Shown here piece by piece: positions 14,454-20,652 of a DNA stretch of 64,000 bases; positions within the stretch are counted from its first letter, which is position 1, and each line of letters begins with the position of its first letter. Below the pieces are notes generated by a model. That model made no database searches and had not been told where the DNA came from. It saw only the letters and a list, made by a program, of their open reading frames with translations. The translations under genes and the position numbers were made by a program. Source of the stretch: Haloarcula rubripromontorii (lineage in GTDB: Archaea > Halobacteriota > Halobacteria > Halobacteriales > Haloarculaceae). Location of the stretch: positions 910,945 to 974,944 of the forward strand of contig NZ_LIUF01000001.1 of assembly GCF_001280425.1 (NCBI RefSeq), written 5' to 3'.

Positions 14454-15245
14454 ATGTCGGGCAAAGACGACTACTACAACAGAGCGAAGCAGGAGGGGTA
14501 TCGCGCGCGGTCAGCCTACAAGCTCCAGCAGCTAGACGACACAGCCGGCCTCCTCGGCGAGGGACGGACCGTCGTTGACCTCGGCGCTGCGCCCGGCGGC
14601 TGGATGCAGGTCGCGGCCGAGCGCATCGGCGAGCGCGGGACGCTGGTCGGTGTCGACCGCCAGACCATCGACGATCTGGAGGGCCCCGAACCGACCGTCG
14701 AGTACGTCCGCGGCGATATGACCGAGGACGGCACGAAAGACGAAATCCGCGAAATAGTCGGCGAGAGCGACGGCAGCGGCGGTCCGGTCGACGTGGTCAT
14801 CTCTGATATGGCCCCGAACATGACCGGGCAGTACGACCTCGACCACGCCCGGTCGGTCCATCTGGTCCGGCAGGCTTTCGAGGTGGCGACGGACCTGCTC
14901 GACGCTGGCGGGGACTTCTGTGCGAAGGTGTTCGACGGTCAGGACCTCGACGCCCTCATCGCCGACATCGAACCGGAGTTCGAGTACGTCCGCGAGGTCC
15001 GCCCCGACGCCTCGCGGGATTCCTCTTCGGAGCTGTATCTGGTGGCGAAACACCGCCTGACTGGGCCGGTCCGCGAGGGGGATATCGTCGAAGTCACTAT
15101 CGACGACATCGGGGAAGAGGGCGACGGTATCGCAAAGGTCGAGAACTTCACCGTGTTCGTCAGCGGCGTCGAAGAGGGCGAAACAGTCGAGGTCCGAATC
15201 GACGACGTGAAGCCCCGGTACGCGTTCGCCGAACCGGTCGAATAA
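14454..15245 (+). CDS. rlmE: Ribosomal RNA 2'-O-methyltransferase RlmE/FtsJ with C-terminal TRAM domain
   Basis: A 263-residue SAM-dependent RNA methyltransferase. MSGKDDYYNRAKQEGYRARSAYKLQQL carries the catalytic lysine of the K-D-K-E set, VVDLGAAPGGWMQVA binds SAM, VISDMAPNMTG holds the catalytic aspartate, and FCAKVFDG the second lysine. Residues from about 200 (GDIVEVTIDDIGEEGDGIAK) form a TRAM domain, an archaeal addition to RlmE that adds RNA binding. An ATG three codons upstream is possible. Downstream it is convergent with the transporter gene. Confidence 0.93.
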   Translation: MSGKDDYYNRAKQEGYRARSAYKLQQLDDTAGLLGEGRTVVDLGAAPGGWMQVAAERIGERGTLVGVDRQTIDDLEGPEPTVEYVRGDMTEDGTKDEIREIVGESDGSGGPVDVVISDMAPNMTGQYDLDHARSVHLVRQAFEVATDLLDAGGDFCAKVFDGQDLDALIADIEPEFEYVREVRPDASRDSSSELYLVAKHRLTGPVREGDIVEVTIDDIGEEGDGIAKVENFTVFVSGVEEGETVEVRIDDVKPRYAFAEPVE

Positions 15246-15263
15246 GCCGCTTGCAGTCGTTTT

Positions 15264-15962
15264 TCAGTCGGCGCTCGCTGGGGTCGTAACAACGTCGTTT
15301 CGGCGAGCGAAGCCGACGACAGCGTAGACGAACGGCGTATCGAGGACGGCGATAGCGAGCTTCAGCAGGTACTGGCCGACGATGAGTGCCAGCGCCTCGG
15401 CCGGCGGGACGCCCTGAAACAGGATGAAGCCGACACCGATGAAGATGACCGTATCGATAAGCTGGCTAGTGGCTGTCGAACCGATGTTGCGGAGCCAGAG
15501 CTTCTCGCCGTCCGTTCGGTCCCTGAGCCAGTGGAAGACGAACACGTCCCAGTTCTGGCTCACGACGTAGGCCGACAGGCTGGCGACGACGATGGCCGTG
15601 CTGGCCCCGAGGACGTTACGGAACGCCGCGAGGTCGACCGGCTGTGCCGCCTGCGGGAGGCCGGGCGCGAAGATGGTACTCCAGACCAGCGCCAGCAGGA
15701 CGAAGTTCATCGCGAACCCGACGTTGACGACGACCGTCGCAGCCCGCCGGCCGTACAGTTCTGCGTAGCAGTCGGAAGCGAAGAACGTCAGCGCGTATGC
15801 CAGTGCCGCTCCGGGCAGGACAAGCGTCGACCCGGCAAGCGGGAGCGAGAACGGCAGCGAGAACGCGAGCAGCTTCGAGGCGGTCACTTGCGAGGTGACC
15901 AGCGCTGTCACGAACAGCGCGACGAGGCCGACGCGAACCGCCTCTGACCGCTCACTGCTCAT
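15264..15962 (-). CDS. Queuosine/archaeosine precursor transporter-type membrane protein (YhhQ/VUT family)
   Basis: A 232-residue membrane protein with about six helices. Family signatures are SQVTASKLLAF in helix 1, FFASDCYAELYGRRAA after helix 2, NVLGASTAIVVASLSAYVVSQNWDVFVFHWLRDRT, and IGSTATSQLIDTVIFIGVGF. Bacterial members import queuine or preQ0; archaeal ones are proposed to import an archaeosine precursor, so the substrate here is inference. The ATG at 15962 lies inside the end of the ribbon-helix-helix gene, sharing 11 bp in another frame, so translation is probably coupled. The end is convergent with rlmE. Confidence 0.85.
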   Translation of the reverse strand: MSSERSEAVRVGLVALFVTALVTSQVTASKLLAFSLPFSLPLAGSTLVLPGAALAYALTFFASDCYAELYGRRAATVVVNVGFAMNFVLLALVWSTIFAPGLPQAAQPVDLAAFRNVLGASTAIVVASLSAYVVSQNWDVFVFHWLRDRTDGEKLWLRNIGSTATSQLIDTVIFIGVGFILFQGVPPAEALALIVGQYLLKLAIAVLDTPFVYAVVGFARRNDVVTTPASAD

Positions 15963-16128
15963 CGTCGAGTCGTCCCTGCCGTTCATCGATGTCGTCGAGC
16001 ATGTCAAGCGTCTTTCGCACCGAAGCGCGGATAGCCTCGCTCCGATTGACGAACTTCCCGTCTTCGCCGACGTGCTTGTCGATGTCGTTCAGTAGTTCGG
16101 CCGGGACTTCGACGCTTATCTTGGGCAT
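15952..16128 (-). CDS. Ribbon-helix-helix (CopG-type) DNA-binding protein, 58 aa
   Basis: Reads MPKISVEVPAELLNDID, then GKFVNRSEAIRASVRKTLDML and an acidic end ERQGRLDDEQ. This is the RHH pattern: a short N-terminal strand that enters the DNA major groove, a helix, the G-x-F-x-NRSE turn, and a second helix. The frame is too short for usual length filters. The stop overlaps the start of the transporter, making a two-gene operon. I infer an autoregulator that controls import of the precursor. Confidence 0.85.
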   Translation of the reverse strand: MPKISVEVPAELLNDIDKHVGEDGKFVNRSEAIRASVRKTLDMLDDIDERQGRLDDEQ

Positions 16129-16145
16129 ATCTGGAGAATATATTG

Positions 16146-16155
16146 AGCATATGCT
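16146..16155 (-). promoter_or_regulatory. Palindromic TATA region of the RHH-transporter operon
   Basis: AGCATATGCT is a perfect 10-bp palindrome centred about 22-25 nt before the RHH start at 16128, where the TATA box is expected. A dimeric RHH protein bound there would block TBP. A second AT-rich stretch, ATATATT near 16137-16143, is too close to the start to serve a leaderless transcript. Confidence 0.45.
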
Positions 16156-16265
16156 TAGCCACTGCGGTTTGCCGACCGGGCGTATCGCCCTCGATGGACG
16201 GTATATGCCGAGACAACTATCCGATATGTTCTATTCCGTTATTTAATCTCTGAAACGTTTCCAGA

Positions 16266-16726
16266 TTGAAACGACGTACAGTACTCGGCAGTGTCCTGCT
16301 GGCACTCGGGAGTGCGGGCTGTCGCAGTGAGAACAGTGCCGAACAAGACGATACGCGACCGAACGTCGCAGTGGGACAGACGCGCAGTTGACGACCGCGG
16401 AACGGACAGCGACCCCCACATCTGCCGGTGAGAACACGATCCGCTTGGGCGTTGACGAGCAAAACCACGTCGCGCCAGACAGTAGCGCTATTCAGTCCGG
16501 AGAGGGCGTCCACTTGCAGGCAGTTTCCGGAAACCACGAAATCTACTGCACGCACGACAGGCCGGACGGGGGCAAAGCCTGGGGCTTCAGGCTAGAAGAT
16601 GAGGAGTCTCGGGGGCTTGTCATCGAGGGTACGGGCCGTTACGAGTATCACTACGCGTTCCGCGACCGGGACGGCGGCACAATAATCGTCGAACAACGGT
16701 CTACGTGTCGCCGCTACGAACAGCTA
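16266..16726 (+). pseudogene. Frameshifted lipoprotein gene
   Basis: A TTG at 16266, placed about 20-25 nt after a TTATTTAATC element, opens KRRTVLGSVLLALGSAGCRS, a Tat-like signal with lipobox GSAGC (C19). The frame stops at TGA 16389-16391. The next frame (+2) begins at the same bases and continues TTAERTATPTSAGENTIRLG, GVHLQAVSGNHEIYC, AWGFRLEDEESRGLVIEG and YEYHYAFRDRDGG, with haloarchaeal codon use. It then runs without a stop into antisense of tatCt. So one gene seems broken near 16388 and its 3' end may be lost. A sequencing error or recoding is the alternative. Confidence 0.6.
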
Positions 16727-18922
16727 TCAGTCGGCGGGTTCGCTGCGGCGGTTCGCCGACCGCCGGCCGCCGAGTGTGTACACCCAGAGGATGCCGAGGC
16801 CGAGCATGTACGCAAGCGCCGTCGGGATGCCGACGAGGAACATCGTGAAGATGCCGCTGGGCGAGAGAATCGCCGAGAGGGCGACGATGCCGATGACGAC
16901 CTCGCGCCAGCGCTCGTACATCAGGTGGAATGGGATGATACCGCCCTTGTGGAACAGGAACATCGTCACCGGAATCTCGGCGAGCAGGCCGATACCGATG
17001 GTGAGGAAGAACACGAGCCAGCCGAACTTGCTCACGCGGTAAGCGATGACCATGTTCGAGTTCAGCTGGTCGTAGGCGATCCAGGAGATGGTCATCGGGG
17101 CCACGTAGAGGAACCCGAGCAGGCTCCCGCCGATGAGCGCGGCGAACAGCGTCCCGCCCCAGATGCCCAGGATGTTGCGGTTGCCGATGACCAGGCCCCG
17201 TTCGCGCATCGCCGGCCACGCGAAGTACAGCACCACGGGAATGACCGAGACGGCCCCGAGTATCGTCGAGAACTTGACGATGAACACGAGGTGCTCGACG
17301 GGGTGGAGCGTGACGATGCTCACGTCGGCGGCCATCTCTGGCGGGAGTCGGCTGACGAACGTCCGCTGAATCGTTCCGATGCCGCCCTGATAGAGGAACA
17401 GGAACGCGGCGGCGAGTACCGCGCCGAAGATGCCCAGAATCACGAACGCCCGGGAAGCCAAGGCGCTGAGGATGAACTGGATGTCGTAGTAGTACCCGCC
17501 GATCTCGTCTTCGGTGGTCTCGTCCTCGGTGAAGGCGTCGACCATGCCGGCGGTCGTCGAGGTGAACACGCCCGCTTCCTCCTCCGCCTCCGCTTCAGCG
17601 GTCCCGTCCGCGGCATCACCGCTCTCGCCCTCGGCGTCGTCTTCGTGGGCCATGTCCCAGCGGTCGAGGACGGCCTGCGCTTTCTCCTTGTTGTCGTCTG
17701 CAAGAGCGCGGTCGGCGTGCGCAAGCGCCTCGTCCTCGCTCATTTCCTCGAACACTTCGGGCGGTGCGACCTCGACGGCTGAGGCGTTGAGTTCGCCGAT
17801 GTCGATGGCCGTCGGGTCGCCGACCTGCCCGGGACCGGCCTTCTCCGAGAGCGCGGTCAGGACGTGGTAGTACAGGACGACGACAGCACCGATGACGCCG
17901 AACCCGACGGCGAGAAGTACTGCTGTACTCTCGACCGGGAGTCCGAACAGCGCCGGCGGCTGAATGTCACCGGTGAGCCGGTCGGATGGGAACAGTTCAG
18001 CGAACTGCTGGATGTACTGGAACGCCGGCGTCGCCAGGCCGTAGTACACCACACCGCCGCCAAGCACTGCACCGCCGAGAATCGTGTTCCAGTGCTCTCG
18101 GGCGACGGCACTGGTACTGACGAGGTCACCGGAGCGTCTGACCAACATTGCAAGCTTCGCCAGCGCGAGGCTGATACCGTAGAGACCACACAGCGGCGCG
18201 GCCCACATAATCTGGGTGAAGGGGTCCGGCGGCGAGAACAGCGCCCCGAAGGCGAAAATCCCCATCACCGCGTAGCGCCACTTGTCCCGGAACGTCTCGT
18301 AGGGAACGATTTCGGTGTAGGAAAGCACCGTCATCACGAGGGGCAACTGGGCGGCGAGTCCGAAGGAGACGGCCAGCAGGAAGACGAACTGGAACCACTT
18401 GACGATGGAGTACTGCGGGGTGAAGCCGGCCTTGAACGCGTCCCCGGCGAGGAAGTTGAACATCAGCGGGAAGAACAGCTCGTAGGCGTAGGCGACACCG
18501 CCGAAAAACAGCCCCAGGCTGATCGTGACGAACAGCGCGCCTTTCCAGGTCGGGATGTGCTCGGCCGGCCACCAGCCCCGCTGGCGGAGCCCGTCGCGGC
18601 CGAAGTAGATCAAAAGCGGCAGCGACAGCAAAATCCCGATGACGGCCCCGATTTTCACCTGCAGGAGGATGACGTCGAACGGCGTGACCGCGACGATGCT
18701 CGTGGCCTCCTGCGTGGTGAGGTCCATCTGCGAGTACAGGAGATCGGCGCGCAGCGTGTCCCAGACGCCGTACTGCAGTCCCATGATCGTGCCGATCATC
18801 CCGATGACGAAGACGATGAACACCTTCTGGAGGTGCACCTGCGCCGAGCGAAGCATCGCGCCGAGCGTCGCCCGTCCGCTCTGAACCGTCTGGACGGTGT
18901 CCTCGTCGATAGCACTCGCCAT
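16727..18922 (-). CDS. tatCt: Twin-arginine translocase subunit TatCt (two fused TatC domains)
   Basis: A 731-residue haloarchaeal form with two TatC units in one chain, about 14 membrane helices in total. The first unit (about 10-280) contains VTPFDVILLQVKIGAVIGILLS and FGRDGLRQRGWW. A long acidic cytosolic linker (about 380-490, e.g. DEALAHADRALADDNKEK) carries predicted helices. The second unit (about 520-720) contains LHPVEHLVFIVKFSTILGA and WPAMRERGL, whose glutamate matches the signal-binding glutamate of TatC. I start at MASAIDEDTVQ; a start 14 codons earlier (MNKLITP) is possible. It is divergent from tatCo. Confidence 0.93.
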   Translation of the reverse strand: MASAIDEDTVQTVQSGRATLGAMLRSAQVHLQKVFIVFVIGMIGTIMGLQYGVWDTLRADLLYSQMDLTTQEATSIVAVTPFDVILLQVKIGAVIGILLSLPLLIYFGRDGLRQRGWWPAEHIPTWKGALFVTISLGLFFGGVAYAYELFFPLMFNFLAGDAFKAGFTPQYSIVKWFQFVFLLAVSFGLAAQLPLVMTVLSYTEIVPYETFRDKWRYAVMGIFAFGALFSPPDPFTQIMWAAPLCGLYGISLALAKLAMLVRRSGDLVSTSAVAREHWNTILGGAVLGGGVVYYGLATPAFQYIQQFAELFPSDRLTGDIQPPALFGLPVESTAVLLAVGFGVIGAVVVLYYHVLTALSEKAGPGQVGDPTAIDIGELNASAVEVAPPEVFEEMSEDEALAHADRALADDNKEKAQAVLDRWDMAHEDDAEGESGDAADGTAEAEAEEEAGVFTSTTAGMVDAFTEDETTEDEIGGYYYDIQFILSALASRAFVILGIFGAVLAAAFLFLYQGGIGTIQRTFVSRLPPEMAADVSIVTLHPVEHLVFIVKFSTILGAVSVIPVVLYFAWPAMRERGLVIGNRNILGIWGGTLFAALIGGSLLGFLYVAPMTISWIAYDQLNSNMVIAYRVSKFGWLVFFLTIGIGLLAEIPVTMFLFHKGGIIPFHLMYERWREVVIGIVALSAILSPSGIFTMFLVGIPTALAYMLGLGILWVYTLGGRRSANRRSEPAD

Positions 18923-18994
18923 CTTCTCTGTGCCTAGCCCAGTGGGCGTTATCAATTTATTCATCCCGGTGACAGCCACTGCTCGAAAAGAAAG

Positions 18995-19000
18995 TTTACA
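18995..19000 (+). promoter_or_regulatory. TATA box of tatCo
   Basis: TTTACA lies 27-32 nt before the ATG at 19027. The divergent tatCt and tatCo starts are 104 bp apart, so this stretch must hold both promoters; the tatCt one is less clear. Confidence 0.45.
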
Positions 19001-19026
19001 ACACCCACCGTCTAAGCCCGGGACAG

Positions 19027-20652
19027 ATGGAGGACGGTGACGCAGACGACGAGCGGCGCAGGCCCGATGAGCCGCCACTACCGTCCGATACCGAGTCCGA
19101 CGATTCGTCGCCCCCGACTGACCCCGTGGCCGAAGCCGATGCTAATCGGGAGACGGACGACGTGACGGGTCCTGGCCCCGCGCCGGCCGGCGGCGACGAG
19201 GACACTGTCGGCTCGCACGCCGCGCCGACCGAAGCCGAATCCAGCGATGGGCTGTTCGACCGAGATGCGTCGGATATCGCCGCCGCTGTCCCGGCGGACG
19301 TGCCGACCGACTGGGGCAAGTCCACGCCCTCGCCGGCCGGTGCTGGCGGCAGCGCCACGCCGACGCACGGGGCTGGCTCGACCCCGTCCAGCTACGATCC
19401 AGACGCCGATATCGTCGACGAGGGCGCACCCGACGACGAGGAGATGCCGCTGGCCGACCACGTCGAGGAGATGGCGATGCGGCTGTTCGTCGTCGTTGGC
19501 GTGATGGCCGTCGTCGCCGTCATCGCCCTGCCGTACTCCGATGAACTCATCAACTTCCTGTGGTACTCATTCCTTGACGGCCCAGCCGAGGCCTGCGGGC
19601 AGGTTGCGACGAATGCCGACGGCAGTGTCGTCGATGGCGCTGACTGTCCGAACGTGTACAACCCGCTCGCGCTCATTCTGGCGCGTCTCAAGGTCTCCTC
19701 GTTAGTCGGCTTTATTGTCGCCTTGCCGGTATTCGTCTACCAGACGTACCTGTTCATGCGGCCGGGGCTGTACCCCCGCGAGCGGCGCTACTATCTGGCC
19801 GCGGTCCCGACCAGTCTGGTCCTCGCCGCGGTCGGCGTCGGCTTCGCGTACTTCGCCGTCCTGCGGGCGATGTTCGACTACTTCATCACCTACTCCGACC
19901 GCGCGGCCGACCTCGCCTTCGGCCTGAGCGAGACGTTCAACCTCATCATCCTGATGCTCGGGCTGTTCGCGCTCATTTTCCAGATTCCGCTGTTCGTGAT
20001 GCTCGCGGTGATGATGGGCGTGACGACCCGCCAGTGGCTCCAGGACCGGCGGCTGTACTTCTGGGGCGGGTTCGCCGCCGTGGCGTTCCTGTTCAGCCCC
20101 GACCCGACCGGGATGGCTCCGCTCATGGTCGCTGTGACGATGATCGGCCTGTTCGAGGGCACCCTGCTGCTCCTTCGCTGGACCGGCAGCACGTCGCCGG
20201 TGCCGACCGCCGACGACCTCGCCGCTCGCCGTCCGGTCGCGTGGCTGACCGCCGGTATCGCCGGCTACGTCCTCAGCCCCGCGCCGGTCCCGACGGGCTA
20301 CTACGAGCAATTGCCAGCCACCGTGACTGAGACGCTCGCAGCTGTTGGCCTCGGGAACGCCACGCCGATGCTCGTCGGCGGCGGGATGATTGTCCTGTTT
20401 GAGGCGCTGGCGTACGTGAACAAGAACTACTACGGCTCCGTGCGGCTCTGGCGGGGCTTCCGGGCCGCCCGCCTGCCAGTGTGGGCTGTCGCCATCGTCG
20501 CCGGCTATCTCGGCAGTCCCGACCCGACGCTGTTCCGCCTCGTGAACCAGTTCAGCCTCCCACGAAACGCCGCAATCGCCGTCGCCGGCGGCCTTGTCCT
20601 CCTCTACGAGGGGACCATCGCCGTCGCGCGCTGGCGAAACCGGGGTGAATAA
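19027..20652 (+). CDS. tatCo: Twin-arginine translocase subunit TatCo
   Basis: A 541-residue single-TatC protein. Residues 1-135 form an unusually long, acidic, Pro/Ser/Asp-rich cytosolic extension. The TatC core begins near MPLADHVEEMAMRLF and includes FMRPGLYPRERR, where the glutamate corresponds to E103 of E. coli TatC, which contacts the twin-arginine signal, and FQIPLFVMLAVMMG with FLFSPDPTGM. Two or three further hydrophobic segments follow the six-helix core. Haloarchaea export most secreted proteins by Tat, so both TatC genes are likely essential. No tatA is in the window. Confidence 0.93.
   Translation: MEDGDADDERRRPDEPPLPSDTESDDSSPPTDPVAEADANRETDDVTGPGPAPAGGDEDTVGSHAAPTEAESSDGLFDRDASDIAAAVPADVPTDWGKSTPSPAGAGGSATPTHGAGSTPSSYDPDADIVDEGAPDDEEMPLADHVEEMAMRLFVVVGVMAVVAVIALPYSDELINFLWYSFLDGPAEACGQVATNADGSVVDGADCPNVYNPLALILARLKVSSLVGFIVALPVFVYQTYLFMRPGLYPRERRYYLAAVPTSLVLAAVGVGFAYFAVLRAMFDYFITYSDRAADLAFGLSETFNLIILMLGLFALIFQIPLFVMLAVMMGVTTRQWLQDRRLYFWGGFAAVAFLFSPDPTGMAPLMVAVTMIGLFEGTLLLLRWTGSTSPVPTADDLAARRPVAWLTAGIAGYVLSPAPVPTGYYEQLPATVTETLAAVGLGNATPMLVGGGMIVLFEALAYVNKNYYGSVRLWRGFRAARLPVWAVAIVAGYLGSPDPTLFRLVNQFSLPRNAAIAVAGGLVLLYEGTIAVARWRNRGE

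Follow-up and report, generated by a model that had tools for sequence, protein, structure and literature searches.

A 58-codon gene located directly upstream of a precursor transporter gene likely encodes a ribbon-helix-helix (RHH) transcriptional repressor that, in the manner of MetJ, controls both the synthesis and the uptake of preQ0 (the archaeosine-precursor regulon). This proposal was derived from sequence comparison and is supported by gene linkage, by an array of operator-like units, by the periodicity of the array, by its sharing between both kinds of promoters, and by its absence from unlinked RHH genes. Nearly all archaea modify their tRNA with archaeosine, the precursor of which (preQ0) is synthesized and probably also salvaged. 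A search of titles and abstracts in the open-licence literature revealed no report of a transcription factor for the archaeosine/preQ0 pathway in archaea, and nothing on point was found there for RHH/CopG regulators, regulons, or repressors tied to queuosine, preQ0, or archaeosine. Hereafter, "the window" is the whole 64-kb stretch of DNA that was analyzed, and promoter offsets are counted from the A of the RHH ATG.

The RHH gene and its linkage to yhhQ

The RHH gene occupies positions 15952–16128 of the window (minus strand). It has an ATG start of the leaderless type at 16128 and encodes a protein of 58 amino acids, which matched the Pfam profile RHH_1 (PF01402) with 21.5 bits, above the gathering score of 20.5. 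The reading frame, including the stop codon, ends at 15952 and thus overlaps by 11 bp the downstream gene yhhQ (15264–15962, minus strand), the ATG of which is located at 15962; the two genes presumably form one operon. The yhhQ product belongs to the queuosine/preQ0 precursor transporter family, with scores of 148.1 bits for TIGR00697 (cut-off 50.95) and 167.3 bits for PF02592 (Vut_1; cut-off 27.2). The coordinates and profile scores therefore confirmed the first-pass annotation, which had described an RHH gene of this length overlapping the start of a precursor transporter by 11 bp.

Orthologs of the RHH gene were found in 214 of the 236 genomes of the order; hence, the gene is not a chance open reading frame, and the lack of conservation that the annotation had named as an argument against its own proposal was not observed. 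The alignment of 43 haloarchaeal orthologs revealed 29 invariant positions, several of which lie in a C-terminal extension past the RHH core (LDxLDxxDxRxxR). This extension is a candidate site for dimer–dimer or ligand contacts; apart from it, the protein has no ligand domain, which counts against a repressor responding to preQ0. The predicted structure contains helices at residues 10–17 and 29–50, with a pLDDT of 88.8 (pTM 0.63) for the best model and of 61.5–66.9 for the four others. The best model resembles an RHH protein, yet the fold search returned six PDB matches, all with E > 1, including a ParD antitoxin chain (TM 0.83 by target length). The neighbors identified across the loci were yhhQ, que genes, tatC, and rlmE, and among the neighbors, which were identified without toxin models, there was no toxin gene of the kind that shares an operon with a type II antitoxin (ParD/CopG type). 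When virus-borne copies were sought, none of the 24 pattern matches checked encoded a relative.

In the family, Vut_1 was found in 81 of 96 genomes, at 83 places, all of which were included in the synteny survey. Under a strict rule (E < 1e-20), the RHH gene was located directly upstream of yhhQ, on the same strand, at 77 of these loci. Of the six loci failing the rule, L065 had weaker or displaced matches, and L013, L053, L057, L060, and L080 had none. At L065 (genome G077), the RHH gene beside yhhQ seems broken or displaced, the upstream match being weak and another match lying further along. Locus L053 (G044:C3:310440-310940) is a second yhhQ copy without an RHH gene, and the other copy in that genome (L047) has one. 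For other families, 61 yhhQ loci were considered, comprising the 26 best matches from the search and 35 chosen for diversity, and the RHH gene adjoined yhhQ in 33 of them. The 28 loci without an adjacent RHH gene included all 18 of family f7, three of f2, two each of f5 and f6, and one each of f10, f13, and f15; an RHH gene was present elsewhere in 17 of the 18 f7 genomes, G301 not being among the matches. When the search was made with the RHH protein itself, yhhQ was just downstream in 66 of the best 80 named loci. The loci are related to one another, so these counts are not independent. The survey thus supported the annotation's view of the regulator and transporter as a conserved pair. The situation it had regarded as adverse, a transporter without the RHH gene in close relatives, does occur, but within the family only at the few loci that failed the rule; among other families it affects some, including the 18 f7 loci.

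Two further features of the neighborhood were observed. A long TatC-like gene of 783 codons, named by eye (16727–19078, minus strand), lies upstream of the RHH gene, and rlmE lies beyond yhhQ. Between the RHH gene and tatC, on the plus strand, a frame with a lipoprotein-like start (MKRRTVLGSVLLALGSAGC; 16266–16391) meets a stop, and the next frame (16388–16720) continues as a plausible protein without a Pfam match; the two are possibly one frameshifted gene.

The putative operator array at RHH and queD promoters

The perfect palindrome AGCATATGCT (16146–16155) occurs once in the 64 kb, compared with 0.01 expected occurrences, and is centered about 22 bp upstream of the RHH ATG. In the first-pass annotation, it was placed where the TATA-binding protein should bind. 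The palindrome is real and unique in the window, but it does not coincide with the presumed TATA box, which from its position is expected at 16153–16158 (minus strand; offset −30 to −25; in aligned promoters, the W-rich peak spans −28 to −25). It overlaps only the downstream part of that element, as well as the outermost unit of a longer array. The palindrome is kept in four of eight loci of the genus; in the other four it is absent, while the units at −12, −1, and +10 keep their phasing, and it was rejected as the operator.

The putative operator array (16108–16151, minus strand) comprises four units with a spacing of 11 bp. Their first bases are 16151, 16140, 16129, and 16118, corresponding to offsets −23, −12, −1, and +10, and their sequences in the window are TATGCTCAATA, TATTCTCCAGA, TATGCCCAAGA, and TAAGC, respectively. 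The conserved promoter unit reads roughly TAWKCYYNNRR and recurs with a period of 11 bp, starting at the TATA box and continuing over the leaderless start as far as codons 4–5. Its core motif was found at the four offsets in 10, 9, 14, and 15 of 18 genera and in at most five at any other offset between −60 and +29; the counts at −1 and +10 are in part dictated by the encoded protein, whereas those at −23 and −12 are not. A motif-free self-match of the 36 bases upstream in the RHH–yhhQ promoters gave peaks at lags 11 (z 6.8) and 22 (z 4.9) relative to shuffles.

The fourth unit is kept within the coding sequence by a rare ATA codon (Ile4; 16117–16119, minus strand). Among the family loci, codon 4 was ATA in 46 of the 50 in which a T precedes the ATG and in 12 of the 27 others, compared with 23 of 247 other RHH isoleucine codons and 26 of 701 yhhQ isoleucine codons. 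Across all families, 70 of the 78 loci with a T in that place had ATA as codon 4, and all of these ATA counts are inflated by the relatedness of the loci. In the named set, ATA was found in 48 of 66 yhhQ-linked RHH genes versus 4 of 14 others, a weaker contrast than that given by a sample of unlinked RHH genes, where it was found in 1 of 15.

The same array was observed in front of queD. In the window's own genome, an operon read as queD-queE-queC (L160) was reached via a queC search, and its leaderless queD start, GATAATACCGTGGTATG, has two units in register. The queD gene is present in 148 of the 236 genomes of the order, and 55 queD loci were taken for analysis (30 returned by the search, 5 adjoining the RHH gene, and 20 chosen for diversity). 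At 78 RHH loci with T at −1, the 24 bases in front of the start codon served as the only training set for a weight matrix, which was scanned over the 150 bases upstream of queD. The match ended exactly at the queD start (ATG or GTG) in 50 of the 55 loci, each with a score of at least 6.2; the array was present at the queD start also in families where the RHH gene is unlinked. In 41 of the 55 loci, the match exceeded shuffles at p ≤ 0.01. In the control, 3 of 3085 window start codons scored at least 6 and two scored at least 10, one of which was that of the RHH gene itself. When the 36 bases preceding the closest start codon of each of the 55 queD loci were analyzed without the matrix, z values of 7.3 at lag 11 and 5.6 at lag 22 were obtained.

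The promoter of queD in the window's own genome counts against the proposed regulon: it has two units only and a score of 9.3 (shuffle p 0.053), and it is not among the operator-pattern matches described below. The 12 queD loci of the genus scored from 6.2 to 11.0, and these scores, including that of the own genome, are low because only the inner units are kept. The f7 queD promoters retain the array. A reverse matrix was built from ten of them, themselves picked with the first matrix. On 110 RHH–yhhQ promoters, its best place was the RHH start in 52, +11 in 8, +22 in 17, and elsewhere in 33; 1 of 3087 window start codons scored at least 5 in the control.

An operator pattern was also searched for in 22 chosen genomes. 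All 13 perfect matches were located at queD or RHH promoters, as were 11 of 14 one-mismatch matches (three of them the opposite strand of a site), the remaining three being located elsewhere; at up to two mismatches, there were 101 matches versus 28 for the reversed pattern. The pattern was written after both promoters had been seen; thus, its matches show specificity rather than independence. The yhhQ promoters of f7 gave a mixed picture, with 6 of 18 at p ≤ 0.01 and varying places of the match, which also counts against the proposed regulon. No convincing operator site was found at tgtA or its paralog (L163, L164). In addition, a one-mismatch array common to two Haloarcula genomes (L120:1059-1083, minus strand, and L121:1078-1102, plus strand) lies between an RDD-membrane-protein-like gene, named by eye, and a divergent gene. 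About 0.4 such matches per genome are expected by chance, according to a rough hand estimate; therefore, the array, possibly an additional target and possibly a chance match, is kept only as a lead.

Distribution of the putative regulator and its operator

In 15 sampled genomes, the RHH gene has neither yhhQ nor a que gene as a neighbor. It is flanked by tatC and rlmE in 11 of them, which is the arrangement of the window minus yhhQ. None of the 15 promoters carried the array (matrix scores from −21.5 to 1.0). The absence of the array from these promoters and its retention at the f7 queD promoters suggest that the operator accompanies the targets rather than the gene of the regulator. This result modified the annotation's model of autorepression by occlusion of the TATA box: occlusion would fit the position of the array, whereas autorepression does not appear to be the point, because no array accompanies the sampled RHH genes that lack such neighbors.

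Other arrangements include an RHH gene directly upstream of queD in four f5 genomes and downstream of queC in one f4 genome. Two of these five que-linked RHH starts scored above 6 by the matrix, and the remaining three show units in a different register. In some f4 genomes, there are several RHH copies, at three places in G164 and at two in each of G209, G237, G245, G289, and G293; one of the copies in G289 is located just 3′ of queDEC and carries its own array (L214).

In the phylum, RHH matches were obtained in 92 of 246 genomes, 50 of them outside the order; the latter are probably methanogens. Twenty of the 50 were sampled, 12 outside f19 and 8 belonging to it. The RHH gene precedes queC, queD, queE, or yhhQ in all 12 sampled loci not belonging to f19, and the 50 bases upstream of these 12 operons showed the same periodicity (lag 11, z 10.0; lag 22, z 4.9). 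None of these four genes was found near the eight f19 RHH loci. Ten queC loci from such genomes were also considered: at least two chained units were present in the 150 bases preceding the queC match at eight of the nine f19 loci and not at the single f21 locus; in shuffled DNA, the background was 0.17 arrays per kb, and 0.003 for three or more units. The link to the supply of the archaeosine precursor, as suggested in the first-pass annotation, gained support from the operator at queD and from the position of the RHH gene ahead of que genes in other lineages.

The co-occurrence of genes is in line with this link. The RHH gene was found in 147 of 148 genomes with queD versus 67 of 88 without it (Fisher p 3e-9, a value that ignores descent). 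The sole genome with queD and without the RHH gene, G120, is 63% complete, and its queD match is weak. Six genomes with queD and no Vut_1 match retain the RHH gene. Conversely, Vut_1 occurs without an RHH gene in 13 listed genomes, which indicates that the transporter can do without the regulator. Four genomes with an RHH gene, in which neither Vut_1 nor queD was found, count against the proposed regulon (G110, G112, G137, and G147, with completeness values of 92, 98, 88, and 64). In G157 (f4, 99% complete), Vut_1, queD, and the RHH gene are all absent from the matches, and the whole set may have been lost.

Proposed mechanism, alternatives, and related systems

According to the model that we propose, RHH dimers would occupy TAWKC-type units in a cooperative manner, as neighbors on the same face of the double helix, the units being located 11 bp, or one helical turn, apart. 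The array so occupied, extending from the TATA box through the start site to the first codons, would block assembly of the transcription machinery. The predicted targets are the rhh-yhhQ operon, for uptake, and the queD-queE-queC operon, for synthesis. When the precursor is plentiful, both supply routes would be shut, with preQ0 or a close derivative as the most likely co-repressor. YhhQ of E. coli has been shown, indirectly, to be a preQ0 transporter, and archaeal preQ0 salvage is thought likely (PMC5372724); in H. volcanii, queE and queC are required for archaeosine (PMC3017900). These reports make preQ0 the likeliest signal, although we assign it only tentatively, at somewhat below even chances, as the direct ligand of the RHH protein.

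We consider it quite likely that the protein represses rather than activates. Activation, for example at low precursor, is an unlikely reading, because a protein bound to the array, which spans the presumed TATA box, start site, and first codons, would be expected to block initiation.

That the RHH protein itself binds the array is highly probable. Tandem operators are bound by proteins of this fold class, such as MetJ, omega, and CopG. Binding by the RHH protein is nevertheless deduced indirectly, and unlinked RHH genes have no array, both of which would suit a real array read by another protein, with the RHH gene linked for a different reason. Such a reader is improbable given that several distinct gene orders place the RHH gene before que genes or yhhQ and that it accompanies queD in all but one of the genomes that have queD.

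A comparable improbability attaches to the RHH protein being a global or cell-division regulator like CdrS, for which yhhQ and the que genes would be two targets among many. CdrS (NF058555) is the nearest named family, an RHH_1 protein of similar size (55 amino acids in Halobacterium; PMC7439475) encoded in an operon with its target, and it was the best NCBIfam match of the RHH protein (35.7 bits, E 6.5e-9). This score is far below the cut-off of 100, so the protein does not belong to that family. Haloferax CdrS has 18 ChIP sites, 15 of which lie 41–110 nt upstream of start sites (PMC8406309). Whereas the CdrS sites described there are mostly upstream of the start, the RHH array lies across it; moreover, the RHH gene adjoins yhhQ or que genes rather than ftsZ2, and the pattern matches with no or one mismatch fall predominantly at queD and RHH promoters.

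Finally, the repeats might be ordinary parts of haloarchaeal leaderless promoters (TATA box, −10 element, and start region), with the RHH protein a bystander; the −23 unit does touch the TATA box, and haloarchaeal promoters are often A/T-rich where the −12 unit falls, but this is very improbable, because 21 leaderless-like starts of the window (putative starts with a W-rich stretch) scored 0.1 or less with the matrix, the unlinked RHH promoters have no array, the ATA codon is outside any promoter element, and the pattern is nearly locus-specific in the 22 genomes.

The closest known system to the proposed repressor is MetJ, the E. coli RHH repressor of methionine genes, which has operator units of 8 bp. 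Common to both would be a small RHH repressor, cooperative binding to tandem units, control of the synthesis and uptake of one metabolite, as predicted here, and a co-repressor derived from the end product, the ligand part being only proposed for the RHH protein. At the level of sequence, regularly spaced tandem units were indeed found before synthesis and uptake genes. The RHH protein differs from MetJ in its 11-bp units, its length of 58 amino acids, the extension of the array into the coding sequence, and the archaeal promoter. MetJ was absent from its profile and PDB sequence matches, and we propose a similar mode of action without claiming kinship. NikR shares an RHH N-terminal domain with the protein and was both its only PDB sequence match (E 0.091) and its top fold match (E 2.6). 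However, only the N-terminal part of NikR profiles was matched, and the RHH protein stops where the C-terminal nickel-binding regulatory domain of NikR would begin. The preQ1 riboswitches likewise control yhhQ in various bacteria (PMC5372724), but they are RNA and not protein; no Rfam covariance match to a preQ1 riboswitch at E up to 1 was obtained within 15200–16400.

In conclusion, the RHH protein is likely an archaeal transcription factor, present in much of one phylum, that treats preQ0 synthesis and uptake as one regulon and would be a protein counterpart of the bacterial preQ1 riboswitch. Its operator would run into the coding sequence and force a rare AUA codon, and both operator and codon are gone where the transporter is not adjacent. 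As predicted from comparative data, the locus offers a gene, an operator defined to the base pair, two target operons, and a natural control in genomes where the transporter is not adjacent. With these in hand, the regulation of a tRNA-modification pathway would become open to direct tests in a genetically tractable archaeon, with the RHH protein as a candidate preQ0 sensor. The locus would also be an unusually clear example of an operator that passes through the start codon into the coding sequence, in which, if the model is true, the regulatory and the coding functions of the DNA limit one another via the forced AUA codon.
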